Assembly: GCA_022835595.1 (NCBI GenBank)
Contig: BQUP01000001.1
Span: forward strand, 2,728,001-2,792,000
DNA from: Cystobasidium ongulense
Lineage: Eukaryota > Basidiomycota > Cystobasidiomycetes > Cystobasidiales > Cystobasidiaceae
Direction of reading: 5' to 3'
Length of the DNA: 64,000 nucleotides
Shown: positions 13,701 through 45,241 of the stretch, in pieces
Numbering within the stretch: the first letter of the stretch is position 1
How the letters are laid out: every line of letters begins with the position of its first letter
The notes under the pieces: model-generated
What the model was told of the DNA's origin: nothing
The model's database searches: none
What the model saw: the letters and a program-made list of their open reading frames with translations, nothing else
Translations under genes and position numbers: made by a program

Positions 13701-16700
13701 TCTGACGCCTCTGAAGATACTTCCTCTTCCGCGAAACTGACATGTGGCTTTGAAGCTGCTGATTTTGGCCATACTTCCGGTTGAGCATGACACAATAAAG
13801 ACGCAATCCCTGGCGTAAAGCAAACACGACAAGGATACAATCAGTCCTATGTCAAGCAAGCGTGGCTCATGATCTAAGCTTATTTGAATGCACTCACAAG
13901 CATGCTGCAAAGCAGTAGTAGGAAAAGCCAAAAATAAAGTTTGTCCACCTTGATTAACAGATATTGGATCTTCCAAAAAGCCCGCATTAGACGATGATCT
14001 GATTGAGTGGGATGATGAAGAAGTTGAGAAGCTAAAAAAGTCAGGAGCTGAAGGTGAAATTGGGAAATTTGATGATGATGAGGATGGTGTCCTTTTCTCG
14101 TACATCGGACTATAAGCTGGAGGTTGTATATGAGGACCATTCTTGATATGAAGTGAAATGCATCTTTGTCTTCCTAATAAAGAAGGATCTACTGGACGTA
14201 TATCGGTACGCTGAAGTGTAGTAAGCTGAACTGAAGCCAAGCAGACCATCTAACGATTACAAGTGAAAATATGGAAAAATTTCAGCTAAAAGGCAAATAA
14301 ACGAGAAAACATTCGTGATAAAGTAAAGAAACTGGAACTCACTCCACTAGAAATAACAAGCTGGCCATTCGCTTTGAGAACAGCTTCACCTTTCCTCCAT
14401 TGTCCCGAAGGTAACAATATCAAAGCTTTCTTATCTTTCCCTTTATTCTTATTCTTCTCTTTATCCTTTCTCTCATCCCCACCGTAGTGATGATGCGAAG
14501 GTTTGTGTTCGGTATGATGATGTTCGTCTTCTCCTGCTACATTATCCGAGAATAGTAATTGTGTACTTTCCCTTCGGACTAATTTCTTACGTGCATTTGC
14601 GATCGGTACATTTGAAAAGAAAGTATTGCTCAATAATCCTTTTGCAGCTAAAGGAATATAATTATGATTTGGATGTTGGGTTGAGGATCTTGATATTGAA
14701 GAAACTCCAGCGTATGAAGATGAATGGTAGCTCAAGTTAGATCCAGTACTTTCGTCCATTGGTATCCAGAGTAGAACATTCTGTTTCAGTTCAGGGATGT
14801 GTCTAGCTAATTCTGTTGGATCATAGCCAGTCAAAGGTATTGAAGAAGCAGCCAACGTAGCTTCTGTCATTCGACTATCGTATGAATATGATCGCATGAG
14901 TGGGGGAGCTAATGATATTCTATGATTAGCAGAAGCTAACAAAGCGCGCCTATCGTCTTTAGAACGTTGGAACGATGGAGAAATAGATGAGATACTAGCA
15001 GGACGTCGATTGAGAGGTTGTTCATCTTCTATATCATCATCATTTGCGTCATCCTTGTTATCTTCATTCGCTGGTTTACCGCCACTTCCTCCTGCCAATT
15101 GGATTGAAGAAGCAGATCTCGCAGATGTAAGGCGAGGTCTTATTCTATCTCTAGAAGACGAAACGAATCGTTCATCGCGAGCGATAAGCTTAGGTAGATG
15201 TGTTGCAATAGTAGTTGTAGTAGTAGGACCGGAGCCACTTTGTTTTGGTTGTTGAGGTGAAGGATGAGATTGAGGATGTCTATTTGGATTACGAGCGAAG
15301 ATATTTAAATAAGGTAATGAATTAGAAGTAGAGGAAGTTTTTGAATCGCTTGATTCTCTTCTATTATGACTTTCATGATTGTTTAAAGAAGAAGAACCTA
15401 TTATACTTCCTCTTACAGAATCAATGGATGAAGTGAATGAACTCTTGCTCAATTTCTTCGCTCGCGATATAGGTCCAATACTTGAACCAGAGAGTTTCTC
15501 TTCACCAACTTCTGATTGGGCATGCTTTCGTATTTCACCTTCATTTCCCAAACTTCTCATCTCTTCATTAGCAACTTCGTCTTCCTCATCAGATAAATCA
15601 CTTCCTCTCTGTAAGGGGAACCTCGTTCTACCTTTTCTCTTAGATAATGTAGTGCTAGGAGAAGCAAGTGGGCTTCTAGGTTGTAACTTCTTACTACTAT
15701 TACTACCACTAACTCCGACTTGATTACCGCCTGAAGAAGTTGTCGAGAATGAATTTACAGATCTTGATGATGAAATTGTAGAGGTAGGGTTGAAAGCTTC
15801 CGATAATGAGGAAGACATTGTTTCGGGTGACTCTTCTTCGACGGATACTTGGCTGTTTAGACCAGAGGGATCAAGCAAGGTACCTTGCTGTTTTGATCTT
15901 AGGTCACTGGAAGAAGCATTTAGAGAAATGATATGTTCGAGTCCTGAATGGATGGACCCTTGTATTGGCGTGGATGATCTCGCCCGTGATCCAACTTCGC
16001 AATCGTGGTTCTCTTCGATAAAATCTAGAAAACCTTGGGCAGACTTAGATACAGACTCGACCTCGTCGGCACGAGCAGTACCACTCTCGTCGTCAACGCG
16101 TGACTCGCACTCGCCCTCTCCAGACTCGGCTACTTCAGTAAGTAAGATATAGCTCCCATCTGATTCTTCACGGTAGCGCTTTTCTTCAATTTCGAAATCC
16201 AGATTATGTCCTGGCACTCTGCTTTCTTTGTCTCGAAGAGGATTGTCTCTGGATGTGAAGGTGGCGGCCCGTGTGGACTCTGCTGGCAGTGGTACTGTCC
16301 CGAGTTGGGCGAGTGCAGAAGGGCGGAGCGATAGCGCTTCAGGTTGTGAGCTTGTTCTAGGAGATGGAGATATACCACCTGTATCGCTTTCTATTGCGAG
16401 ATGTGTGCCTGTGCTTGTAGTGGGCCTCGAACAATGCTGATCGAGGTGGTCGGACAAGGTCTGGCTGGCGGTGGTGCTCGCAAGAAGAGCAAGCGAGCGT
16501 CGCCTGTGTTGAGGTGTACTAGATGGAGTGCTGTATCCAGTGCTTGTTCCTGCGCGATTATTAAAGCTCCAGCTGTCCTGCTGCGGCGAACAAGCCGAGC
16601 GTGCGATTGATGATGATGGAGGAGCAGCAGCAGCAGGCAGGCTTTCCTTCAACGGCAATGTTCCCTCCAATCTATGCAGACGAGCGAACCATGAATCAAT

Positions 16701-16841
16701 CTCGTCCACTTCTTGCAGGCTGAATCTTCGCGAGGACGATGTGGATGCTGCTGATGCCAGACTAGCCGATGCGGTGTTCGAGTGTCGCAGCTGTTGGAGC
16801 CATGATGAGGAGGATGAGGAGCAAGAGGATGGACGAGTCAT
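10745..16841 (-). CDS. PH-C2-RasGAP protein, Ras-family GTPase-activating protein (1,898 aa)
   Basis: Six exons (14343-16841, 13898-14249, 13125-13809, 12792-13050, 12301-12722, 10745-12224) with phases 0,1,2,0,2 give 1,898 residues. The first 800 are Ser-rich and disordered. A split PH-like domain runs about 805-960 (KANGQLVISSG, LLGRQRCISLHIK, closing Trp helix HAWIASLLCHAQPEVW). A C2 domain at about 1140-1262 has LFCEIWLDGEILGRTGVRH and TLDIHVFTIRK. The RasGAP domain (about 1290-1560) has NIATLFRGNTL, with the arginine finger near residue 1327, and FISLRLFCPAILRPNLF. The catalytic Arg is present, so it should stimulate GTP hydrolysis on a Ras-type GTPase. Domain order matches Bud2/SynGAP-type proteins. 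The C-terminal 350 residues are disordered. Target GTPase unknown. Confidence 0.9.
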
Positions 16842-17592
16842 ATTCGCCAGTAGGTAGCAGGCAGTAATGCAAGTATCATCAGCATATTGCAGCAAGAGAA
16901 GCTCCCAACTCTGTCTGTTCCACCACTTTACCGCAACGCAACGGCAGACGCGCAACGACACGCTCGAGCCATGGATGGGAAAGCAGGCAGACTCACTTTG
17001 ATAACCACTGGACGATGTGCGAAAAGTGCGAAGAAGCAGACTCGACTCGCAGCCTCACCTCACCTCGGCTCACTCGAACACGACCACCTGCGACTCGTGT
17101 TCCCGCAGCTCATCGCCGCCGCACCTTTACGACGACCAAGCTTTGGTGCCAGACTTCACAGGAGCTTTGTTCAGCGCTCAGACCGCTCATGTCAGACTTG
17201 ACCGTTGCGACGATCCGGCACCCACATAAACACGGACTTGGCGAGGCCATCGGAGCTGAGAAAGAGAAACAAGATGCGACAGTGTACCGTATACTGGCAG
17301 ACTCCATTACTATTTCGCAACCTGTCTTTGACCACTCCTTACTCCCGACTGAACAAACACACGTCGCAATACTGTACTTCCGGTGTAAGATCCGGACGAA
17401 CAGACCCTTTGCTCTTTTCTGAACTCCTAGCCGCGTGTCGGGAATATGCTTCGTCCGGACGAGAGTGTCTCATATGAAACATGATAGCCCAAAGGAGAAC
17501 TACAATACGGAAACCGAATCTTTTGTGCGCATCTACCTGTTCTACGATTTATAGAAATGTCCTCCGCTCCTTGAAACTTTCTGTCGCTCCAA
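16842..17592. other. Upstream region of the RasGAP gene, 750 bp
   Basis: It lies between the RasGAP start and the 3' end of the next minus-strand gene. Short open frames occur on both strands but none has splice-site or codon support. I see no RNA gene. Confidence 0.45.
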
Positions 17593-25565: not shown

Positions 25566-28423
25566 TTATAGTCTACTTTCTGTGCCACTCATTATGAAAT
25601 CCCTAAAATCTTCATGTGAAGGTTCAACATCTTCCAATGCTCTTCCCACAAGTTCAGTATCATTATATCCAACGATATGACCATCGAATTCAGCTGTTGT
25701 TCCTGGCATTTTCCTCAATTTCTCTTGACGTGGATTACCAGCTACTTTTAATAATTTCTCAATACCTTGTTTACCTCCTTCGCTTGTGAACGTAGTCGAA
25801 GAAGAAGTAGAAGTACTGTTACCATTCGCTCCGTTAACATCAAGGAGGTTCTTATAACCTTTATAGCTATCGCTTTTTCCAGTTTCGTGAATTACCATTC
25901 CAACCATAGCTTTATTCAACAATTCTAATCTTTGAGATTCTTCATATTCTCTTTGTTTGACAGCACATTCCGAGCAATTTGGTTCTTGACACCAAATAGT
26001 AGTAATAGTTTCTTGAATGATAGGAGCTCTAACAATAGTAGTAGTAGTAATAGTTTCAATCAACTCAGAAGCAGGATGTTTTCTGCCATTGAATATCTTT
26101 TCAATTAAGCCATTTTCAGCTGCATATTTGACAATTTCTCTATTCTTGAGACATTCTTCACATTTGCATTGTTCTTTGCCTTCTTTATTGTATGATGATG
26201 AATTTCCTAGGATCGATACTGTATCGGTATAAGATTCTCTTCCAGTCTTACGAGTATTAGGATCATTGCTCTCCATTTCCTTTTCTTCTTGTGGATCAGA
26301 ATAAGTATATCTCCATTTCTCACCACCATGAGTCAGAGACCACATTTTTTGTTCAGAAGCTACACATTCTTGACAGATAGAAGCAGTGTAATTAACAAAC
26401 ATGTAATAAGGAATAGGTTGTGCAATATTTGAGAATAAATCTTGAATATGAGGATGATTAGGAGCAGGATGTGAGATATTTGGAACAGGATGTTCAATAA
26501 ATCGTTGAGTTTTACTAGAGATGACTTTTGGCTCTGACACATGGGTAGTCTGATAAGCAGGACCCTGAGTGGCTATTCTTCTCGTTTCTTGCTTTCCTTG
26601 TGTAGGGAGGCGGCGTGGAGACGAGGAGGACATAGTATTGGTAGGTGGGTCAGAAATACCAATAACACGAGCAGCATTTCTAGGTTCTTCTCTAGCACCT
26701 TGATCAGCATAAGCGTTTTGTAATTCTCTCTGCCTAGCTATTTCAGAAGCTGGTAGATCTTCTCCCATTCGTTCAGGTAAAATTCCAGAAGTGCCTTCTT
26801 TATCACCTGTCATACGTTCTCTTGCTTCTCTAACTTGAGTAGCGGGTAACATGTCGCCTCTGGTATACGAAGAGAGACCTTCTCCTGCGGATGCATCACC
26901 TTCCTGTCGGTAAGGAAGGGAAGATTGACCAAGACCACCAGCATCTGCACCTCTATTCTTGTTTCTCAAAGAATCACCACGACTAGGTCCAGTACTTGCT
27001 AGTGTGGAGCTTAACATTCCCAATTCAGGACCTCTATTAACATCTTCTGATCTCCTTCCTACTACATTCATATTTTCCATGAATCGACCTTGATTGTCTG
27101 GTGTTCCTGTTGTAGGTCCTGTGCCGAGTGGTATAGGTGAGAACGCTCCAGTACCTACGGCAGCTGCCCCAGAAGGATGCATCTGGTTCGTAGATGAAAG
27201 GCCTTGGTGTTGAGATTGCAGAGGAGAAGCTGGAATTCGATCTCTTGATATGTTTCGCCTGTGTTGTGCACTTTCTGCTGCGTGGGTGACAGCAGCTGGC
27301 AACTCGCCTTGTTCACTGTAAGAGTGACCTCTTGCTTCTCGATTTGCGGTTCCTGTTGGGATGGCTGACTGCTTAAGCCCGTGCTGGTGATCTTTTCCAC
27401 CTATAGATGCTTTGTTCAAAGCTGTAGCCTCTGCAGAGTCATCTAATAGCTGAGAGCGTAGACCAGAGATTGATTGTACATATTCCGGACTAACTGGCCT
27501 TCTGGGTAGGTCTCTCTGTTGTCCTGGAATAGCGGTGTTGCCGGTGGCAGATGACCTCATCGTACCCGATTTGTCCAGCCCAGTAGCGTCGTATAGTGAA
27601 CCATATTGGTTTGCCTTGGACCCCTGTCCTGGAATACCAGAGCGAGATAGATTATCTGGAGGAGGGGATTGAATGACGGCTGGGAGGACACCTGTGGTCA
27701 TGTACCAGCCTGCATTCACGCCACCTCCAGCACCACCAGCTTGGGTGGAAGCACCTAATGAAGATGTTCTGTTGTGTCCCTTGACTGCTTGTTCAGCGGG
27801 TGAATAGATAGATTGACCATCGTAGCCATACGATCCAGCCGCCGATCCAGAGGAAGGACCGGATGCGTGACGTGAGCGATACGGCGAGGTGGTAGAGCTA
27901 GGAGGGGAAGAAGTTCTCAATGCTCTTTCTTGTGCTTCTTGTTTGAGTTTAATGTGGAGTAGGGTAGCATCGTCAGTCGGAGTCTGCTCTATTCCGCCCA
28001 TGTTAAGCGAAGGTGAGGGGATGTTGGTATTCAAAGTATGGGAAGCATCTTGATGGCCGGCGTGACCGTGTCTGAAGAATGAGCGTGCTTTGGATGGGGA
28101 CTTTGTAGGTGACGAGTACGCATTTGCCAGCTGAGAAGGTGGAGCTACGACGGTGGGATGGTTCTGGTCTGCTCGGACTGCGGATGGCGAGGTGCCTTGC
28201 GACATGCCTTGGAGCGGGGCCATGGTCGGCGAGCTGCTGGCTTGGACTGGCGAGGATGATTCGAATGCTTCAGAGGCAGATGTGATGGGACTTGCGCCTG
28301 CATGTAGGAATGGCAGGTGTCAATGTCTGATTAGGTGGGAATAGCCATGAATGGAGAAAAGAGAGAGCACCCACCGATGGATCGTCGTTGACCTTTCTTG
28401 AGCTTGTTGTCTCCCCAGTGCAT
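25566..28423 (-). CDS. Hypothetical 926-aa protein with paired-cysteine C-terminal region
   Basis: Two exons: 28375-28423 (49 nt) and 25566-28297, phase 1. The N-terminus MHWGDNKLKKGQRRSIG is basic. Residues 20-600 are Ser/Gly/Pro/Gln-rich and disordered. The C-terminal 300 residues look more ordered: YYMFVNYTASICQECVASEQ, then KCEECLKNREIVKYAAENG, then a Thr/Ile stretch and WCQEPNCSECAVKQREYEE. These give four short Cys pairs (CQEC, CKCEEC, CxxxxCSEC) that could bind metal. The conserved-looking end has MVGMVIHETGKSDSYKGYKN. No named family is recognised. A zinc-coordinating domain is inferred from Cys spacing only. Confidence 0.7.
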
Positions 28424-29919: not shown

Positions 29920-30997
29920 GGTTTATCTTCAGGCTTTGAGGCTCTGAAGAAATTGAGATTTGGAGAGGCACCGGCTTGTAACAGTAATGTAGCTGAACGG
30001 AGTGGAATGGAGAGAAGAGAGGAAGAGAGAGAGAGTAGGAGATGGTGAGCTCCAGTAAACCTCCTTGACGCAGCTTGGTCATGCTAGTGAACAGCCATGG
30101 CTAGGTTGTGTAGCCATACACAACAAGTCACAGACCATGCCTTGTGGAGCCAAGTCCGATTCTGGCCTAGACCATGCACAGCAGACGGTGCTGTGTAGAA
30201 AAACCTGTTACGGGCTATGTCAAGGTCAGCTGGTCGTGTAGGTCATGCCTAGCACTGCTTTGACGAAAGAAAGATGAGCATGAAAACACGCATCGAGTTT
30301 TCAGTTTTTGTAGCAGGTCGAGGAGGATGCTCCAACTGGGACAGGATTCAGTAATATGATAGTTTTGTCTTGAATTCAGTCGTTCTTGGAAAGCTGGGAT
30401 GGATTGTAGGGAAGCGCTGTAGCTGGGACCACTGCTACCTTTTCGCTTCATTTTGCTCGCTGGTTGACGAAAGCGCAACCTTGCGGCATGAGACATGATT
30501 ATAGCATGAGCTGTCTTCGAGATGGGCGTTTGTATGCTCAGCGTGTTCTGCTGTTGCATGTTGTCGTCTTTACCGAGCCATATTGATTGACTGTGAGCCA
30601 AAGAGCGTGGTCGGCTCTAAAGGCTTTCACGACGGCTATGATATTCCAACTTTGGACCAAGAGCACGATGCCAGCAGTCTTTAGGAAGAGCATGCTCTCA
30701 CAGCTGGTACTGTCACTACATACACTTTACTGTACTTCACTCTCTCTCTCTCTAATCGCTCTTCACATCCGAGTTGTTCGCCGTTGCTGTCACCGCACTG
30801 CTTTGGTGGCGGCGTTGCATGTGAAGAAAAGCAGCAGGTTTGACGCTTGGATGGACATTTGCAGGCAGGCACAAGGAACGCTGTTGAAGTCGTACACCTC
30901 GTCAGCATCAGCATCAGTGTCACTCTAACCTTGAGTCCACAGCTGCTCGCTGCACATCCAAGTCGCCCGCTGGACCGGGCACGAGCACGAGCAAGGC
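29920..30997. other. Divergent region with GA/CT tracts
   Basis: About 1.08 kb between the small minus-strand gene and the Pho80-like cyclin. It contains a GA-rich run at about 30010-30040 and a CT run at about 30740-30754. A minus-strand open frame at 30215-30601 has no ATG at its head and no splice support, so I do not call it. Confidence 0.5.
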
Positions 30998-33900
30998 ATG
31001 CAGCAGCGGGAGAGGACGAGGACATCTCTCACTCGAGCCACAACAGCGTCGACGATGATGACGATGAGCAGCGGTGGACGAGGGAGCAGCAGCAGTAGTC
31101 GACCGTCGTCGGGCGGGCATCATGGCGTCCTGCACAAGAGTGCGCCCTCTTCGTTGTCGTCCTCTGGGAGGAATCACCCCAGCAATAGCGAAGCTACAAT
31201 GGCCAGCAGCAAGCAGCAGCAACAGCAGCAACACCGGTCAACCCAGCCTGCAATCACAACACTAGCATCACCTACTTCCTCGGCGTCATCCTCAATCTGC
31301 TCCTCGCCCCCGTCATGCAGCTCGTGTTCATCCTCCTGCTCGGACTGCGACGACGAAGCACAAGCATCCACATCCTTATTGCTCCAAGTGAGCGGTGGAC
31401 AACCGCAAAGACAGCCACGCAATAGTACTTCTAACGGACCACGACACTCTTCCACATGTCGGCATCGGCACCGTCATGCTGCTCGTCACCAGCACATCTC
31501 GCACTCTTCGACCGCCAGCACCGGCCAACTAGCCCACAATCACCATCACCTAGATCAACAGCTATTCTCCCCAATCACCAGCAATGGATCTGTCATTTCC
31601 TCAGAAAGCAGCTCAAAGTCTAGACCTGGCTCACCCCTCAAGTCGTCCATTGGCAGTATTCTTCCACCTGCTGAGCACCCTCATGCTCAACCTCCAGCTT
31701 CAGCAGCCAACGTGGTCAAGCGCTCGCCGCTGTCAGTGTCGAAAGATCGCGAAACGGACGGCGCAGACTGCATGACGGAAGCCACACAAGGACAGGAGGA
31801 ACACCCTACGCATTCCATGTCGTCGACAATAGCACAAGACGATGTAGATATGCATACAGACAACAAGCTCATCACAGGTCCGTCGCTTACTGAAACAAGC
31901 CAGGCAGAAGAAGCAGTTGAAAGAACCCAGAGCAACCCTCGTAAATCAGCTCGTAGGCATTCGGGGAATGGAATGAAGACTCCAGATGAAGCTTTGTACA
32001 CTACTTTATCGTCAACGCAGCTACCCTTTTCATCGAGCACATCCTCCTCTTCTACTCCTCTGCCATCATCAACCTCTTCGAATCAAGCTAAAGAAGAAGC
32101 ATTCGTTGCTCCTTCCATGTATTCGCGTACCTCTTCCACTCCAGTGTCAGCGCACTATCAACATCCTGGAACACCAGCATTGACAGCGGGTACATCAACG
32201 ACAATGCCTCCTATTCCAATGGGAATGAGAAATCCAGGTGAGAGAAGGATACCAAACGAAGAAACGAGACCTGCTAGACGTAAAGTACATCGAATCGATA
32301 CCACCCCATCTAATACCACTACTGCTCCTCATAGATCGGTTAGAGATAGTTTAGGACAATCAAGAAGCTTCTCTACACCTGCATTATCGAGGAAAGTCAA
32401 TAACGATCATAACGTGCTCAATGCCAGCAGAGACGTTGAAACCACGTTCCAGAGACCCACGCCACATGGTGATTCGTACTTTCCTCAATCACGAACAGCA
32501 CAAATACAGAGTAGGAGTAGGCCCACCTCTTCAAATAGTCATAATAACAGTACTGCAGGAAAAAGGGTCAGTAGTGTGTCTGATACGTCGAATCGAGGTA
32601 CAGACGATGCTTTCATGTCGCCCGATCATCATCTTGCCCAGCAACATCCAGCGCAAGCACATCCGCAATCACTACAACAGAGGCAGCAAAGGCATAATGA
32701 GGACAAGAGACGTCAGAAACTTGAAAAATTGAAAGAAAGGGAAAGTAAAATGGATCATATGGATATTGCTTCTTTCCCTACCAATAATCTACTTCAATTA
32801 CTGGCCGCTTTACTTGGGAAGATTACGGTTAAGAATGATAGTATCAGAGATGGATTACTCGATCCTTCTTCTTCCTCTACTGCTGATACGGAATCGGCAT
32901 TGTCATCTGCGAATGAGGCGGGCACGTCGAGTTCAAGTGGAGATGCAAAGAAAGAGGGAGGTGATAGTCAAGACGAAGAGATGGAGGGTGATACACAGTC
33001 CGACGAGCCACAGAAGCCTTCAGGGCGAAGAAAGGCACCAGGAACAATCACTCCACCTCCTCAATTTTCTTCACATTCTAGAAAGTCGTCAAATGAACCT
33101 GTTACCCCTGCTGTTCCATTCCCTTCACCTGCTCTCAGTAGAGATCCCTCATACATTTCAAGTGTGAATGGGCGTGAAAACGGTGGTGATACTCATCCGA
33201 AAGAAAGAGATGCCTTTGAACATGATTCTAGACTGACTATCTCGCCGCCTGTCACGAACGCTCTGGAAGGAGACAACGCCAAGCAGGCCGTTGATTCGAA
33301 GGGACAAACAGACGAGGAGAAAGAGGATAGCTCCCTACAGCCTAGATACAATTTCTATCGACCTTCAATTTCTCCTTCATCGTATGGAATTTCACCCAAA
33401 ACAAGTATCTCACAAGGAGGAAGCAAGTCACTTCTAAGCTCAAATACACATACAATACTCACTTCCGCTGCTCAAGCTTTAGCTACACCCAATGCTACTT
33501 TATGCTTTCATGCTAGAAATATACCTAGTATTTCAATTGAAGCTTATTTAATTAGAATATCAAAATGTGAGTTTCTCCCTTTCCCCTCCCACCTTTGTTT
33601 CTTCTACTTTATTTGCGGCGGACTAAATTGATTTCTTTTTCGGCCACTTGTAGATTGTCCTACAACAAATGAAGTTTTCATCTCGCTCTTAGTTTACTTT
33701 GATAGAATGTCAAGACTTCCTAATCTTTCAAACCTTACTTCGTCATTACCTTCAAGTTCAGCTGTGCAAGTCAGTAATAGTAGTAGTGATAGCAGTTCTG
33801 CATTAAGTTCCAACACAATTGTCGGCGACAATCAAGCAAACACAGATTCAGCACCTCCATCGTCACTATCTACATCGTCCAATCCTACTTCTCATCTTCG

Positions 33901-35313: not shown

Positions 35314-37047
35314 CGTGACGATGCGGAAGACCAATTGTCCAAGAATGTACCCGGGACTTGAATTTTGCTATGATCAGGCAATCTTCTACAGGACATTGCA
35401 TCCCCGTCTGCACACCTCATATACAACAGCGATATGTCAAGCTATAGCGGCGAAAGGCGCTGCCTCTTTTCAGGTTGAACGAACGCGGTCGACTCAAGAA
35501 GTCACAAGACGATTCAGCGTGTAGCATATCGAAAAGACACCAAGCTATACCCAACCACAATATTCTATCGAGATACGCCCCGTCTTTCGCTTTCTCTTTG
35601 TGGATTATGTAGCAAGACCAATTCCCATTTGGATATATATGGATGGCTTTTCCAAATGTACGGATTCTTTTCCTCATCCTCATAGAGTGTACTAATAACG
35701 TTATGCCTTTTAGGAAAGCTTTATAATGTCGTTGACAACCATTACGAGGACAGAAATGAAGTATAGCAGTCGAGTTTCAGGGCTACCGCGACTTCCATGA
35801 CGTTCTTCGCGCTGATGCAAGCTTTGGAATCGCTTTGGGCTGGAGCACCCACATTTCTCGATACCAGCATGCAACTAACTTGGATATGTAGACACGTTAC
35901 AGGTACATAGTGGCTATGCTCTCCTTTCTCCTAATCGTGTCAGGAACCATTTCAGCAATTCGAAAGACGAGTCACTGTTTTCATGCGAAGAACGCGATCG
36001 ACCATTCTCAGGCAGACAAGTCTGTTACATGCTCAGTGACGTCTATATGCATTGCAAAGTCCTCTCTTTCCGGATGAGCAGTCCGTCAAGTCTCATGAGA
36101 CCGATCTATGTCCCAAAGCTTGTGCTTCGTTACATTTTCAGGATCTATACTGGTCTAGGTTAACATGCGATGGAGCTGCTGCAATTGCAATAGCAATGTA
36201 CGATAGTTGCCTGAACTATCTGACTAGCAGCTTTACTGCACTGCCTGACATTCCCTTGGCAGGCGAGAATTCGAAGAGTACCGCCTTCTACCTTACGTAC
36301 CGTTTGCGGTGATTCCAGTCTGGACTGGAGTCTTTCGGACGCGACTTTGTCTGACGCGTAGAAAGACTGAAAGTGGACTGTAAGGGTGTTGGCAGCGATG
36401 TAGATGACCCTCGAGGGGATTGGAAGGATTCTCATGCAGTATAAATGGGTCAAGAAAGGCTACCAAGCATTTCAAATTGGTGTCCAGGACCAAGGGGGCG
36501 GTCCTAGAACGCGTAGAGTAATGTGCCCTAATTCTTTGACTGGCTCTGGCATGTCTGCTGCGCTACGCTTCGATGCAGCCTCCCTCAAGGCTGGTCACGC
36601 CACCCAGCACGAACATGGCCAAAGCGCCCTTGCAGCGGGAGGAGGCTTGCCTATGAACGGACTGCGATGTGGATGGCCCGATAGGCTACAGCAGTCTCAT
36701 CATTATCCAATACTCGCATGCAGGTGATGCTGTACCGCCCACATCGTCTGCACAATTGCTGTCGATGGTGATGCGGCTGCACTTGCATGATCGCAACCGG
36801 CCTCGAGGAAGACCTCGCAAGAAGTGGGCAGCAAGGGCAATGTCAAGCCTAGGAATATCACCAAGTCATCGGCAAGAGCAAATATTAGCTGAACATGGTG
36901 CTCGTGTCGCAAAGCTACAATGCTGACTGCTGAAAGCTGCAAAGCTGATCAGCCGCCGCCGTCGCGCTTGCTCTGGCAAAGCAGTGTACCCCGTCTATCT
37001 ACAAGCCTCAGCACAGTAGGCACTTCTCTGACCTCTTATAAAGACCA
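35314..37047. other. Gene-poor region, part 1
   Basis: About 1.7 kb without a supported gene. Short frames at 36052-36312, 36404-36727 and 36669-36926 lack ATG or splice support. The last one encodes an AT-hook-like RPRGRPRKKW. No transposon ends or coding remnants are recognisable. Confidence 0.45.
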
Positions 37048-37349
37048 ATGGATAGGAAAATGGATACTCTAGTCGAATATCTCGACAGGTTTTTCATCAG
37101 GTAAGCACAATCTTTGGGCTCTCATCATTTGTGTTCATATGCTGAGCCGATCATGCTTCTGTCTTCTCGACTTCACCACTCCGCCCTCCAACTAGCATCC
37201 AGATAGCTTTTCTCACTGAATCTAATAATTATCTGTCGGTCAAAGTCGGTATAAGTCATCCTCGCGAAGACCTGATTCTCTACCGACTTGCCTCTATATC
37301 GTTTCGAATTATGCAATTATCACCATCGACCGTCAGCAAGATCCGCTGA
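37048..37349 (+). CDS. Possible small two-exon gene (68 aa)
   Basis: ATG at 37048 opens a 53-nt exon ending at a GTAAGC donor (37101). After a 95-nt intron ending AG at 37195, a 154-nt exon continues in phase to TGA at 37347-37349. The peptide reads MDRKMDTLVEYLDRFFIS then IQIAFLTESNNYLSVKVGIS and ends in KIR. A TTATAAAG sequence sits just 5' of the ATG, too close for a normal promoter. No family recognised. It rests only on consistent splicing and could be chance. Confidence 0.25.
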
Positions 37350-38773
37350 GAAAGCTTTCGTCCAGCTAATGCAGTGCAATATCATGCTCTTGACTCGTCA
37401 ACCTCTCTCCATACTGTCCTCGCCTTCCTGTGCGAAGTCAATTCGATATGCTCCTGCTGGCTCGAATCCCCAGACCCTCCATAATGAACGAGCTGCTCTA
37501 TGCTAAATAATAGAGGGAGCGCTACCAAGCTTATAGTGATACCTTCCTAGCGTCGAGCTTCGTTATTGTTTCGCCTTGAGGCATCCCCCCTTACGCTAAT
37601 GACTGCACCTTCACCGTCCAGAGCCAGATTTCGCGAAAATAGTATGCAGGCCTTGTCCAGTAGGTGCAACATATTGGCATTAAAGAACTAGTGTCACCAA
37701 TCTCTATCGATACTGGCTCTTGCTGTCTACGTGAGCTTAGGTCAGCTGGCATCTTTCCAATCCGTCGGTAAGCAACTGCATCTCCTCAGTACCTAAGCGC
37801 AAGTCAATTAGCTGACACCTTCTTATCGTCTAGTTAGCTCATCCACTTTACTACCTGAACACCTCTATCATAGTCAGAAGCGCTTCTCGTCACGTCGCCT
37901 GTCTAGCATGGCAAGGATATAAAGCGAACATGTGAGCGACCGTGATGTATGTTGCGTACTTGTTACCCAAAGCTGACATCCTGATGCTTCCCTAGCTACA
38001 CATACATGAGAGCCATGTCGAAGTTTTCTTTTCTGTTCATCAACGATGCTTGATACAGCTGTCCGCCCTTCCTGCCTGTCTACAGCACACATCCATACAC
38101 ACATCTCACTTCAGTTGGTACACTTGATGTCCTTCTGTCCCTTTAACGCGTGTCCCTCTTCATTCTCGCCGTCGATGCTTTACGCGTCGCTGTCACGTCC
38201 TGCAGCTCATTCTCATTCTTTCCCCTCGCCATCGATGGCAGGTGTGGACTCGCCGATGCACACTCTAGAACAGTATTCCAAGCATTGCTAACCCTTTTTG
38301 AATCATAATCCTTCCTGCTCAAGCCAGGAGAAAGGTATATGCAAGCCATTCTCCATGCGTTTTCGACATTCTCTACGGCCAAAACGGCACATTCTTCACT
38401 GCTTTGCACCCAGGAGGCCTGCAATGCTGAATGGCGTGATGTTGGGAAATGGGAGTCTGGGAGCGTATTTAAGCAGGCTCAATTTCTCTCTCTCTTTCTT
38501 CTCTTCTCTTCATCTCATCTTCACTCTCGTCTAAGACACTTAGCCTATAGCACTTTCAAGGTAAGTTTGATCGCAACACGTGCTTCGTCCATGGGTAGCC
38601 TCCACCGCCATTCCTTCTGGGCTTGCAGGGAGCAGCCAGAAGATACGAAGTGACGAGTGCAATACAGCTGATACATCTACTCTGTTACATCACTCCTCGT
38701 CCCACCTCTCTCGTGCATTTAGCCTCTAACACTCGCACTCTTCATTTCACCCCTTTCAAGCGGTCCTCACAAA
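37350..38773. other. Gene-poor region, part 2, with the 5' region of the first family gene
   Basis: No supported coding sequence up to about 38440. From there a TATA-like TATTTAAG (38466-38473), a pyrimidine-rich run (38481-38520) and a likely 5'-UTR intron (donor GTAAGT at 38561, plausible acceptor near 38629) lead to the ATG at 38774. Confidence 0.45.
38750..38761 (+). promoter_or_regulatory. Shared 12-nt box upstream of family gene 1
   Basis: CCCCTTTCAAGC ends exactly 12 nt before the ATG at 38774. The same 12 nt ends exactly 12 nt before the ATG of family gene 2. It may be a retained piece of duplicated 5' UTR or a translation/processing signal. Confidence 0.5.
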
Positions 38774-39494
38774 ATGGATTCTCAGAACAACAGCAGGTGT
38801 GTCGTTGTAGTCCCTTTGACATGTCGTGAAGTACCTGCCTAATGATCTTCCGTCAGATCTTGCCTTTCCCTCCTACGCAAGGGCTCCGCCCCCATAGCGC
38901 TTGTCTTTGGTGGCAAAACCAAAGCGTCGGCAGCTTTGCCAATGTGAGTCCTTATTGTCAACACTTATTCATCTCTGGTACTCATTACTTTGGTCGTTCA
39001 GACTCACTCTTGTAACGACCTCCACCGTTGCTGTCGAAAGCCGCCTCAAACTATCTCACAATTACCCAAACGTTGGCTGCTTCCAAGCGCCCGATCATCA
39101 CCAAACCTATCTAGAGGAAGTGAACTTCGCTCAGCACTCCACAGCAAAGCTCGATGTTTGCTCCAGTGACTACGGTCTCACAATACCTGCCTGTCCTCGT
39201 ATTGTGGATTGCAAGGTTTTTGCAAGCAACGACTGGGCTGAAGATAGTGAGCCGGTCACTACCTATGGACTGCGTCGGCAACGACGATGCACCAATCTCG
39301 CGGCCTTGGCTCAGAAACCTGCATTGGTCGGTGACTCCGGTGACCAGAGATCACCGAACTCTGGCTCCTGCCTCTCCAGCCCTCGACTCTATCCATTCGA
39401 GGATACCGCATCTGAATATGAAGGCAACGGAAGCGGAAGTCGGGATTCTGACTTTATTGCAAGTCCACAGAACACCACAAAATTCTTCTTGTGA
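38774..39494 (+). CDS. Tandem family member 1: unrecognised small acidic Cys-Pro-Arg protein (200 aa)
   Basis: Exons 38774-38796, 38857-38943 (87 nt) and 39002-39494, phases 2 and 2, encode 200 aa. The N-terminus MDSQNNSRSCLSLLRKGSAP is followed by an ALPILT motif at the second splice junction. The core is CPRIVDCKVFASNDWAED, then LRRQRRCTNLAALAQ, then an acidic Ser/Gly tail ending TTKFFL. The same order, splice phases and exon-2 length recur in the next gene. There is no clear signal peptide or membrane helix. I recognise no known family. Conserved exon structure and mostly synonymous differences within matching blocks argue that this frame is the coding one. Confidence 0.7.
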
Positions 39495-39730
39495 ATAGCT
39501 TGGTGTACGAGTCTTGATGATTAGTTATTCGTGCGGTTTGTGAGATATCTTAAGACTGTCCTGCATCATCTTCTGTTCTTTAAGTGCTTAAAATACGGCT
39601 AGAAATGTATGATTAGGTTCGAATACCTATGCTAAGATACGTTACGACTTTTATTCCGGTTTATGGATATGGAATCAAGAATTATTGGTTGCACTGTGTC
39701 AACAACTGCGGTACATTTTCCTTGCGTCAT
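39475..39730 (+). repeat. 3' flank duplicated with the 3' flank of family gene 3
   Basis: From the last codons of gene 1 onward, the sequence resembles 42274-42520 (diverged, with blocks such as the final TTCTTCTTGTGAATAGCTTG identical and GATGATTAGGTT shared). This marks the family as a segmental duplication that includes 3' non-coding sequence. Confidence 0.65.
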
Positions 39731-40574
39731 CTTCACAGACTGTTCTTTGATGAATAGGCCGCCCACAGATGTTCTTCGCTCCGTCGAGCTGTCCTGCAAA
39801 GCGACCGCAAGTCTTGAACGACTACTTTGCGGTCTGGTCCGCAGGAAATTACGCCTGATGCATGTCGCTGTTTGCTGGTGCAAAATTACCTGGTCAAACT
39901 CAGATGGCAGCGCTCTCGCGTCGTGCTCGGCTCGATCGTGGCAATGAAAGAGATGGAGCATGGGCCGGCGCTGCTTTTCTTCCGCATACAGTCCTTCACT
40001 ACAGAGTCCACCATCACATCAGCAACTGGCTGCCTCAGATACATGCGACGTGACCTGAGGTTCTGACAAGGCCTTTCCTCTGGCGAGAACAGCCAGCTTG
40101 GATCTCGCTTCGACCTTGACTTACGGTAATGATATGTCTGGACTTGCAGGAAGCTGCCTAGAGAGCAGCAGCAGCTAGCAACTGCAGTCGTGCTTCAATA
40201 CCACGTGCAATGCCAAGACGTTCACGCGACGTTCACGCTGAATCTAGTTGATGACGTCCACCTTCGCAACGCATAAAGCAGTGAAAGAAGTCGTCCTTTT
40301 GCAAATGGACGCCTACGCAAGCACAGTCATTGCATGGAGACTTGGAGACTCAACGACTACTGGCAAAGGATGCCTGAAGATTTGCCTTTATTAGCACTTT
40401 CCTGATCTTTCCTTGTCCAGCATCAATCCAGTAATCTCCGAGGAAGCATCCTGCCAGTAGAAGAGAAGTGCATAAGAGTGTCAGCTATCCGCCAACATGG
40501 AAGCCTTCTAGCTCCGCTTCGGACTCTTCCATTATTAGTAAGTAGTCTGCCTTCCAAGCTTCCAATTTTTGCAA

Positions 40575-40580
40575 TATAAA
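40575..40580 (+). promoter_or_regulatory. TATA box of family gene 2
   Basis: TATAAA within a TATATAAAAAG-like context, 25-30 nt before a CTT-rich initiator-like stretch. It lies 575 nt before the ATG of gene 2, so a 5'-UTR intron is likely. Confidence 0.4.
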
Positions 40581-41131
40581 AAGCCCTCGTTCTCGTCTGG
40601 CTCTCTTTCTTCTTCTTCTTCTTCTCAACTAATTGCGACACCAGGCCTGGTGCCGGGTCCCTCGGTGAAGATTCCAATAAAGCATGTTGACCTTCTCATT
40701 CGCTGGTATACTGGATACTGCCTCTGGTCACTACTACAGGCGAAACTGCAACTTCAACCGTCGCACACATTGGCCATCACCAAGAGCAAAACAACCTTCA
40801 TTAAAAGCTTGCAAGACACGCTCACATGGCGGTCCGCTGGTGAAATTCCGGTCTATCAGATAGTAGGACTGCTACTTTCTGCACGAGCTTTTAGAACGTA
40901 CGCAATCTTGCTACCTACGGACTGGCCCGCAGCTACGGCACTTACAACTGGCGGCAAACTCAAAAGGTTCTGCAGCTAGGATAATGACAATGTTAGTGCG
41001 CGTGGATGACGAAAGCCCGTTCTTAGACTAATTGCTTCCGCTTTAACAGCCCTAATTTCGACTCGCCGAGCGATGCCTTGGGCAAGAGCGGTCTAGAGGC
41101 ACCAAAACTCCACTTTCCACACTTCAGTCCG

Positions 41132-41143
41132 CCCCTTTCAAGC
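41132..41143 (+). promoter_or_regulatory. Shared 12-nt box upstream of family gene 2
   Basis: Identical 12-mer CCCCTTTCAAGC at the same 12-nt distance from the ATG as in family gene 1. Confidence 0.5.
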
Positions 41144-41155
41144 AATAAAATTAAG

Positions 41156-41896
41156 ATGGCTTCCCAACTTAACGTCGTTAGGTGAGTCCTTAGATGGCTT
41201 ATAATAGGTCTGAAGCACCCTTCTAATGCTCTCCTCACAGATATACGCTCTTGCTATTGAGGCCAACCTCCGCAACTGCGGCTCCTGTTTCTGGTGGCGT
41301 TACCAAAAGCTCTTTGGCTTTGCCTATGTAAGTTGCTTGACAAGCGACAAATACTTCTCCTCAGGCTGATTACTTCTCATTCGTACAGTTTGACACCCAT
41401 CTCGACCTGCGATGACTTCATCAGAAGCGGTCTCCAGGCTTCCCCCAACAGCCCTATTGCTGCCTCCTTCCGAACGTTCGCTAACGAAGACATCAATGGC
41501 GTCGCTGGCCAGCTCGCGGACAAGCTCGAGCTTTGCGCAAGCATCTGTCCTCCAGCGACACCTTGCTGCCCTCGCATTGAAGACTGCCAGGTCTTCGCAA
41601 GCAAGCCTTGGGCTTACGACGAGTCTGATAGTGACTATCAGCTCGCTATTTCCAGCAAGCTTCGCCGGCAGACCCGAAGCGTCGATCTTGCTGCCTTGGC
41701 TCGGGCAGCTGTCTACAAAGATGCTAAGTCTGGCACATTGCCCAGCGACGAGCTGGAAGACACACCCTCCTCATTCTCATGCCACTCTATCCCTCGATTT
41801 GACGACACCGAATCGGATGATGATGGCAACGGAACGGGAAGTGGAGACTCTCATCTTATTGGAAGCCTACGAAAAGCAACAAAATTATTCTTATGA
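41156..41896 (+). CDS. Tandem family member 2: unrecognised small acidic Cys-Pro-Arg protein (206 aa)
   Basis: Exons 41156-41181, 41241-41327 (again 87 nt) and 41389-41896, phases 2 and 2 as in member 1. The N-terminus MASQLNVVRYTLLLLRPTSA is more hydrophobic than that of member 1 and could be a weak targeting signal. The ALPILT junction motif is conserved. The core reads CCPRIEDCQVFASKPWAYDE, then SKLRRQTRSVDLAALARAA, and the acidic tail (FDDTESDDDGNGTGSGDS) ends ATKLFL. Family function is unknown. The stop is followed directly by member 3 with no spacer. The frame one base downstream is open throughout this exon. Confidence 0.7.
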
Positions 41897-42293
41897 TAAA
41901 TTGGAAGGATCTTCTCCTCCTAATACTCCTACCCTTGGCTGCTTTGAAACATGCGCAGCTTTCTCCCCACCTCCATGCCCTCGTAGCGAAGACTGCATTA
42001 TTTTCCCAAACAATAATTGGGATGACGACAAGTCTGACCACGACTCTGAGGTCAACATCACCAGCAAGCTCCGCCGCCAGGTGCGAAGCATCAATCTCGC
42101 TGCCTTGGCTCAGAACGCTGCCGAGGTCGGTGACTCCGATGACCAGAGATCACCTTCCTCTGGCTCCTGCCTCTCCATCCCTCTACTCTATCCATTCGAA
42201 GATAGCGAAATAGAGCTTGAATGCAACCGAATTGAAAGTGGAGAGTCGGATATGCCTGAAAGTCCACGAAAGTCTACAAAGTTCTTCTTGTGA
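41897..42293 (+). CDS. Tandem family member 3: 5'-incomplete copy fused behind member 2
   Basis: The sequence right after the stop of member 2 encodes, in the next frame, the family core CPRSEDCIIFPNNNWDDDK, SKLRRQVRSINLAALAQ and the tail ending STKFFL with the stop at 42291-42293. Matching exons 1 and 2 are absent. The frame is open leftward into member 2, where an ATG at 41817 would give a 158-aa product overlapping the end of member 2 by 80 nt. So this may be a partial tandem duplicate, an overlapping gene, or a 3' part expressed from the upstream transcript. The downstream flank resembles that of member 1. Confidence 0.55.
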
Positions 42294-42520
42294 ATAGCTT
42301 GAAGGAGAACTTTGATGGTCAGTTAGTCGTGGCGCCTATGAAGTATATTGAGATTATTCTGCCATTCTAGATCTCTTCCTGAAACTGTTGAAATAGTGTT
42401 AGGAGTGGATGATTAGGTTTGAATAGCTATGTTAGAATATGATCCGGCTTTCACTATATGACGTGAGTATGGTATAAATGAATCATTGGTCAAACTGTTA
42501 CAACAACATTATTGCATTTT
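42274..42520 (+). repeat. 3' flank duplicated with the 3' flank of family gene 1
   Basis: Counterpart of the repeat at 39475-39730: identical around the stop codon, then diverged with short shared blocks down to a common GCATTTT/TACATTTT end. Shows that members 1 and 3 share an ancestral 3' end. Confidence 0.65.
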
Positions 42521-42563: not shown

Positions 42564-43892
42564 TCATGGTATATCCACCATCGCGCGTACTTCAGCTTTG
42601 GTCAATGGTAGATCCAACTGTGCTGCCTTTCTCCAGATAGATAGCCTCTCTGTCAAACGTTTGTGATTCTCTGTCTCGCCGTTCTCTGTCTGAGTATCCA
42701 ACAGCCATTCTGTGCTCCCTGTCCATGTGAGATACAGATCTAGCAATACTTTGCATGCTTGCCATATGTCTTCTTCAGTAGCGACGTCAAATAGTGTGAA
42801 CCAAGGCGCTGGTTCCATTGGGAGAACAACTCTTGGTGAAGAGGTAAGCACCGCTAAGTAGACGCATGATACTGAGATGAGATGAGGCGGATGAGTTGCG
42901 AGGAGAGGTGTGAGAAGGCTAAGGACGGGGATAAAGGTAAGTAGGCTAGCTACCAGGCGTTGGTGCAGGGCTTGGGCTTGAACAGACTTACAAATCATTC
43001 GCAAAGGACCACGCTCGCTGTGTGATTTCGGGATGATCTGTTAAGCTAAGTACCTGCAGGTAGTTGACAATGCTTCCATATGGGTTTTGTACTACTGTGT
43101 TGAAGCCGAGTCGCTGTGGTCATGAGCGTGTGTTTCAGTTTCGTGCATTTCCAGTGCGCGCTTGGTGTACAATGACCAAGCTGCGCAAGCAGACAAATGA
43201 CTAACCTTGAGAATCTGTGATTCGGCAATGACGACATCATCCTTCCAGTCATAATACTCCTTTGCGAAATAGTCCATCGGTTTATAGTTGAACTTTTGAA
43301 CACTGCTCGAGGCCAAAGGTGTGCCGCTTATACGTTCCAGTTCAAGCTGTTGCGCTTCGAAGTCGACGAGCTTTATTAGGTAGTCGAAGCAATTGATGAG
43401 GTCACGTATGCGTATTGGATGTTCTTCCAGCTTGCTAGCCAGGAACAGAGCAGCAGCAGCTATGTCCTGTTGTTCATGCGCGTTTACGGCGAAACACGAA
43501 AATGTTAAGGATCGCACTACAACATTGGAGCTTCTCAATGTTCGATTTTTGAGAGGATAAATGTATTGAGCGCACCTTCATACTGAAGCTTCGCATGCTT
43601 GAAACGTAAAAGAAACGCTGGAACAATACTGAAGCGGTCGTCATGAGTACTTGAGGAGCTTTGAGATGTATGCCTGCCTGCTCTATCAGGAGGCAGCCAT
43701 CTGGAGGCAAGTAATGCAGAATCAACCTCAGACACATTCAAATAGCATGTGTGTATCAATGCCAACAAGCTCACACGTCCGCATGTCTGTCTCGAGCTGT
43801 CTTGATAGGCCATCCTGCCGTGAGGGCGTGTTTTTGATCTGCTCTTCCGAGGCCAGTGGATTCAGCAGATGCCTGGCGCCTGCGGAAGTCAT
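42564..43892 (-). CDS. Cyclin L-like transcription/splicing cyclin (335 aa)
   Basis: Exons 43775-43892, 43576-43700, 43206-43466, 42992-43113 and 42564-42945 (phases 1,0,0,2) give 335 aa. The first cyclin box reads LLIEQAGIHLKAPQVLMTTA, VLFQRFFYVSS, DIAAAALFLASKLEEHPIRI, then RLGFNTVVQNPYGSIVNYLQ and VLSLTDHPEITQRAWSFAND. The second box holds THPPHLISVSCVYLA and PWFTLFDVATEEDIWQACKV. This pattern fits cyclin L (partner of CDK11-type kinases in splicing and transcription), with cyclin K/T as the alternative. The final intron (42946-42991) is only 46 nt and is the least certain junction. It is divergent from the WLM protease gene, 200 bp away. Confidence 0.8.
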
Positions 43893-43936: not shown

Positions 43937-44092
43937 GGCATTGGTGAATCTTGTAGAACTCGTTCGAAGGAAAGCTTGGTCAGCAGCAGACAAGCAAGTT
44001 GAAAGATGCTGATCACGCTTTCGAAAAGCACGTCTCTTGACCAGCCTACGACCTTCATCACAACATCATCTTCGAGCAGTGTATACATCGCC

Positions 44093-45241
44093 ATGGACTC
44101 CATCTCTCCTGAAGCTAGTACTTCCAACATGCTCGAGCTGACCATCTCACATGGCGGCCAGCAATATCACATATCCGTAGCTGCGTCAGCGACTGTCGCC
44201 GAACTGCAAGAAGTTCTCTCTCGGGAAACAGGAGTAGCCCCAACCTCGCAGAAGCTGGTATTCAAAGGGAAACCACTCATAACACCGTCCAACCTCGCAG
44301 TCTCACTTGCTGCACTCAATATTCCCAATGGCTCGAAACTGCTGCTAATCGGCGCGAAGATCGCCACAGTCTCTGCATTCGTGAAGCAAGCGCATGATCT
44401 ACAGAAACGTTATGAAGTTAGCAAGTCTAGACCTACCGTGAAACCTAGAACGACAGCAGCTGGAGGCAAGATGGTCATGGATCTGAATGACCTTAGGCGC
44501 AGTGGCGTTAATGCGTATGGTCGAATAGAAGTACTCCCGAATTGTCCGCATGAAGACCTTAGGCGTGAGAGGCTTGTTCGACTGAGCAAAGATGAGGCCG
44601 TTTTAGGTGAGGTTACGCGTAGCTATTATTATCCAAGAGTTTAGCTGACGATTACTGGTATAGACTGTATGAAAACACGAGAGTGGACAGTCGGTCTTCT
44701 TTCAGAACTACATCCACAACGAGATCCTACACTATTGGGGCTGAACAAGAATGCAGGAGAAGCAATTTATCTTCGCATAATGACCGATGACTTATCTGGA
44801 CTGCGACCTGTGAGTAGCGTCAGCTTCCTTCCTTCCTCGCGGTGGAAATAGACTGAATGTAATGCTGGACAGTACTTTCACACACGAATGGTCCTACTGC
44901 ACGAGCTTACCCATAACAAGCACGGAGATCACGATGAGAAATTCAAGACACTCAATTCACTTCTAAACAAAGAAGTCAAAACGTACGAAGCAGCCAAAAA
45001 AGCTGGTGCACATCGACTAGGTGGCGATGTTGGGGATCACTATGAACCTGAGGAAGTGTTAGAGGAAATGTGCGGAAGTGCTGGACCTGGTCATACAACA
45101 AGCGGCTCACACACTCCCTCTACACCTCGGAGTCGGACACCAAGTAGAATGGTCGAAGATGAGAATGGCGCTTGGGAAATGGAACAAAGACGCTTGGCTA
45201 TCCTTCGAGCTGCCGAACAAAGATCAAAGAAACCTACTTGA
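44093..45241 (+). CDS. Ubiquitin-like/WLM-domain metalloprotease (Wss1 superfamily)
   Basis: Exons 44093-44606, 44664-44809 and 44873-45241 (phases 1,0) encode 342 aa; an in-frame ATG at 44006 would add 29 residues. An N-terminal ubiquitin-like domain (LELTISHGGQQYHISVAASA ... LVFKGKPLI ... LNIPNGSKLLLIG, residues 14-90) precedes a WLM domain with RREWTV-type entry (MKTREWTVGLLSELHP), LNKNAGEAIYLRI and the zinc-binding active site HELTHNKHGDHDEKF (HExxHxxxGxHD). WLM proteases related to Wss1/SPRTN cut proteins crosslinked to DNA and bind ubiquitin/SUMO pathways; the fused Ub-like form is known in fungi and plants. All zinc ligands are present. Likely nuclear. Confidence 0.9.

Follow-up and report, generated by a model that had tools for sequence, protein, structure and literature searches.

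Small lineage-restricted gene families are common. Two classes of genes form the closest comparison for the locus described here. Tandem orphan-gene families encode small proteins without a recognised domain, as adjacent paralogs in the same orientation, with one degraded copy and in a gene-poor stretch; the locus is alike in each of these respects and differs in its motif set alone. Small secreted cysteine-rich fungal proteins are alike in size and in having several cysteines, but the proteins predicted here seem to differ in lacking a convincing signal peptide and in having only four cysteines common to the three copies. We analysed a window of 64,000 nucleotides of the basidiomycete Cystobasidium ongulense that holds three related copies, A, B, and C. 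In kind, they form an ordinary small tandem family, one copy of which appears degraded.

The preliminary description of this DNA had placed the family in the only gene-poor part of the window, which is about right. Stop-free frames of at least 150 codons cover 15% of the bases in the bin 36001-40000; across the fifteen remaining 4-kb bins, this share ranges from 38 to 83%. Neighbours in the window carry SPT16, RasGAP, Rad51, cyclin-type, and aldo/keto reductase domains, which together with the short GT..AG introns suggest a fungal source. RIP-type indices of the region containing the three copies are close to whole-window values. Searches of the window for tRNAs and Rfam families found nothing. 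Several other features were observed in the window: a 21-nt unit repeated perfectly in tandem, 3.2 copies (740-807); a 213-codon frame on the forward strand with a ubiquitin-type match (44003-44644, E 2e-9); and three frames that each run for about 900 codons without a stop, two on the reverse strand (14286-17054 and 25566-28319) and one on the forward strand (30935-33631), none of which matched Pfam-A with an E of 0.001 or less. Two reverse-strand frames at 42567-43577, converging on the end of C, show weak cyclin-type matches (Cyclin_N E 7e-5, slightly below the curated cut-off) and are possibly a divergent cyclin-like gene.

The features of the locus, all on the forward strand, are as follows:

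38736-38761, +, leader motif of gene A, a weak feature; the ATG lies 13 nt past its last base, and it is 85% identical to 41118-41143
38774-38796, +, gene A exon 1, 23 nt
38857-38943, +, gene A exon 2, 87 nt
39002-39494, +, gene A exon 3 including the stop, also backed by tblastn similarity and codon-model selection
39495-39706, +, flank downstream of A, homologous to the one behind C (blastn 39285-39706 against 42084-42507, 72.8%, E 4e-62)
41118-41143, +, leader motif of gene B, 26 nt, spaced from the ATG as in gene A
41156-41181, +, gene B exon 1, 26 nt
41241-41327, +, gene B exon 2, 87 nt
41389-41896, +, gene B exon 3 including the stop, also backed by tblastn similarity and codon-model selection
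41897-41915, +, junction of the 3' flank of B with the body of C (B-C blastn match to 41909, E 4e-5; weak resemblance of C to exon 3 of A from about 41916)
41916-42293, +, copy C, 5'-truncated exon 3 including the stop; firm homology from about 41946, frame open
42294-42507, +, downstream flank of C, homologous by blastn to that of A

Gene A (38774-39494) and gene B (41156-41896) each comprise three exons, with predicted proteins of 200 and 206 amino acids, respectively. All four introns are of the GT..AG type and 58-61 nt long, and the two lengths of exon 1 yield the same phase at both junctions in both genes. Our exon models thus agree with the two complete genes, with identical splice phases and an identical 87-nt exon 2, that had been proposed from the sequence. 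A and B are adjacent paralogs in one orientation with a common gene structure, as expected of members of a tandem family. Beyond the leader motif, identity between the full 60-nt leaders of A and B was not above that of shuffled sequence.

The motifs CPRxxDCxxF, W, LRRQxR(S/C)xxLAALA, and TKxFL are present in all three copies. ALPILT, which had been listed among the shared motifs at a splice junction, occurs in A and B and is missing from C. The three-copy alignment has 39 invariant columns, four of them cysteines; A and B contain seven cysteines each, and the four common to all copies are counted over three rows only. The proteins had also been called acidic, which holds for B (pI 4.9) and C (pI 4.3) but hardly for A (pI 6.4). 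By tblastn, protein similarity reached E 4e-23 for A against B, 8e-31 for A against C, and 5e-24 for C against B. As a control, the annotated frame outscored the other two forward frames in every pair (222/136/88, 277/199/168, and 223/159/118). The similarity among the predicted proteins is well above chance level. With E values up to 10 allowed, tblastn revealed no convincing further copy in the window; the best of the remaining matches had E 0.15.

We used codon models, fitted to the pairwise and three-copy alignments and compared by likelihood ratio with omega = 1, to ask how the frames have evolved. For A and B, omega was 0.381 over 192 codons (2dlnL 21.3 against omega = 1) and 0.31 in the 95 columns before CPR (2dlnL 11.3). 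The three-copy fit gave 0.463 (2dlnL 22.9), and Nei-Gojobori dN/dS was 0.38 for A-B, 0.45 for A-C, and 0.59 for B-C; with synonymous distances of 0.6-1.2 and three copies from this window only, all such values are rough. Third codon positions are the most divergent in all three pairs. These results show that A and B have been kept as proteins under purifying selection. The A-B fit (omega 0.38, 2dlnL 21.3 against omega = 1) likewise supports the prediction of two real paralogous genes. The preliminary description had named a dN/dS near 1 between copies as one outcome that would speak against the family, and had treated the identical splicing as strong evidence for real genes. The former was not found for A-B. 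The latter is a weak argument, since duplicates inherit their exons and introns, used or not, and identity between A and B is about equal in intron 2 (0.74) and exon 2 (0.72). The case for real genes stands more firmly on selection.

It is highly improbable that the frames are chance or decayed ones and that no member is a gene today. Nucleotide identity is the evidence in favor: when segments of the copies were compared under permissive gap scoring, which inflates the null, only one of twelve (A/C, CPR to stop) beat the best of 200 shuffles, the A/B segment from CPR equalled it, and several A/B segments fell within the shuffled range. Under the same scoring, exon 3 of A and B before CPR has an identity of 0.57, under the shuffled mean of 0.62. 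What supports the putative homology of the leader, exon 1, and early exon 3 is not this test but their order, their spacing, and the alignment of the proteins. Weighing against chance or decay are the A-B omega, including its low value in the columns before CPR, the top score of the annotated frame, and the four intact introns.

Searches of libraries gave no relatives. Neither A, B, nor the frame of C matched Pfam-A at E up to 10, and neither B, the frame of C, nor the three-row profile matched PDB sequences. Gene A had one PDB match, to a molybdate-binding protein (E 0.59), which was disregarded as chance, and one match to PHROGs from one of the three exon-3 segments (E 0.26) was also disregarded. 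Two scans of viral contigs returned 32 and 11 pattern matches, and two scans of prokaryote contigs returned 72 and 155, with no confirmed relatives among them; as these collections are viral and prokaryotic, misses there say little about fungi. The heptapeptide CPRIEDC was not found in a full-text literature search, which is a weak test, and none of the papers listed concerned the family by title or abstract start. With no Pfam-A match and no convincing PDB-sequence match, the claim of an unrecognised family is supported only against the libraries searched, none of which is a fungal proteome.

Copy C lies directly past the stop of B, in a different frame, with 131 codons open. By tblastn, it is firmly homologous at the protein level to B from about 41946 and to A from 41970, i.e., inside exon 3 and with no splice junction, and no homology to exons 1-2 was detected by tblastn at E up to 10. 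Its frame has no ATG between the stop of B and 42252, hence none before the core. Part of the gene is therefore missing from C, as in a truncated pseudogene. The match of B to the 3' end of C extends 13 nt beyond the stop of B, to 41909, after which the body of C begins. Because the B-C match ends at 41909 and the resemblance of C to A starts near 41916, the B-C joint is placed at about 41909-41916. A and C have 212 nt of downstream flank in common that B is without; this is expected if the flank of B and the 5' part of C were lost together.

Selection on C is separable neither from neutrality nor, significantly, from that on the other branches. Omega on the C branch was 0.89-0.96 in fits to 200 columns and 0.98-1.10 in fits to the 105 columns that start at CPR. 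Setting it to 1 carries no cost in likelihood, and a common omega is also not rejected (2dlnL 2.3, 1 df). Pairwise omega remains below 1 for A-C and B-C (2dlnL 8.4 and 4.3, respectively). The simplest reading is that C is a 5'-truncated relic in the presumed 3' UTR of B rather than a third gene. The third copy proposed in the preliminary description is thus a related partial copy, but better seen as such a relic.

We also observed that C is a mosaic over 41975-42507, B-like from CPR to LAALA and A-like from LAALA on, including the downstream flank. Between CPR and LAALA, C matches B at 22 sites and A at 10; from LAALA onward, the counts are 12 for B and 37 for A. A Fisher test of this contrast gave p 1.8e-4, with the breakpoint picked after inspection and the columns before CPR excluded. 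In those earlier columns, the B-like pattern of C is not continued (A=C 12, B=C 9, A=B 18). Conversion or crossover among the copies may possibly have caused the mosaic.

A 299-codon open frame (41394-42293, forward strand) overlaps exon 3 of B in the +1 frame and continues into C. It raises the possibility, which we consider improbable, that C is a working third product, made either by overlapping-frame translation from ATGs inside B or by alternative splicing to B. The frame of C is open back to 41394 and includes three consecutive ATGs (at 41817, 41820, and 41823), from which up to 158 amino acids could be translated; its 131 codons are still open, and pairwise omega of C with both A and B is below 1. 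Opposing this are the omega near 1 on the C branch and the ease with which long +1 runs arise: synonymous shuffles reached the longest +1 open run in exon 3 in 107 of 2000 cases for A, 140 of 2000 for B, and 409 of 2000 for C, counts that are not independent, the copies being homologous. Dual coding in the +1 frame is thus unsupported by the shuffles. As to splicing, a pattern scan of exon 3 of B gave two donor-like GT sites only, neither resembling GTRAGT. A bolder proposal, that a lineage-restricted fungal family of CPRxxDC / LRRQxRSxxLAALA / TKxFL proteins has a new fold or function and that a live dual-frame B-C locus gives a second protein, we regard as very far-fetched.

A tandem duplication in the fungus would have given rise to the small three-exon genes, of which A and B have stayed whole, their proteins kept by the purifying selection seen in the codon models. 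From the third unit, a deletion or unequal crossover would have removed the promoter, exons 1-2, and the beginning of exon 3. We infer this event from the present anatomy, in which the first nucleotides past the stop of B are fused to the middle of exon 3 of C. C would now sit as a decaying relic where the 3' UTR of B is expected, presumably within its transcript. This history of duplication, retention of A and B, and truncation of C is well supported.

What the proteins do is a more tentative matter. They may act inside the cell as small, largely unstructured binding proteins, a mechanism that we consider possible but doubtful. The N-terminus is nearly free of acidic residues, perhaps for organelle or membrane targeting: residues 1-45 of B contain no D/E, which 21 of 20000 shuffles equal, and residues 1-48 of A contain one, with 513 of 20000 shuffles as low, the stretch length having been taken from the data in both cases. 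The four common cysteines around CPRxxDC could bind a metal or pair up in disulfides. Behind LRRQxR, a short helix at LAALA might be a partner-binding site, and the tail is S/D/E-rich, ending in TKxFL. An AlphaFold model from the three exon-3 rows had a mean pLDDT of 39.4 and a pTM of 0.14, and only residues 100-108 had a pLDDT of at least 50, nine residues within a helix at 100-113 that starts at LAALA; three rows are too shallow for a verdict on the fold, and the model establishes neither disorder nor the helix.

That A and B instead encode small secreted cysteine-containing proteins is unlikely. Such a role would fit their small size, the seven cysteines in each, and their place in a small tandem family where genes are sparse. 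Against it, hydropathy is weak in both and pointed to no convincing signal peptide, and the three copies have only four cysteines in common. The 11-residue window of highest hydrophobicity has a mean of 2.0 in A (residues 31-41) and of 1.6 in B (residues 5-15), where an Arg breaks it. Because there is no clear signal peptide, a secreted protein would be less likely than an intracellular one.

Taken as a whole, the evolutionary and protein parts together form the best explanation of the locus, to which we give a probability of about 0.75; the evolutionary part by itself is held a little more firmly. Because small lineage-restricted families are common, general interest would be limited unless a function is found. 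If borne out, the finding would add one apparently undescribed family of small proteins, and would provide a readable case of tandem-copy decay, in which a junction has placed a truncated copy behind the stop codon of its neighbour.
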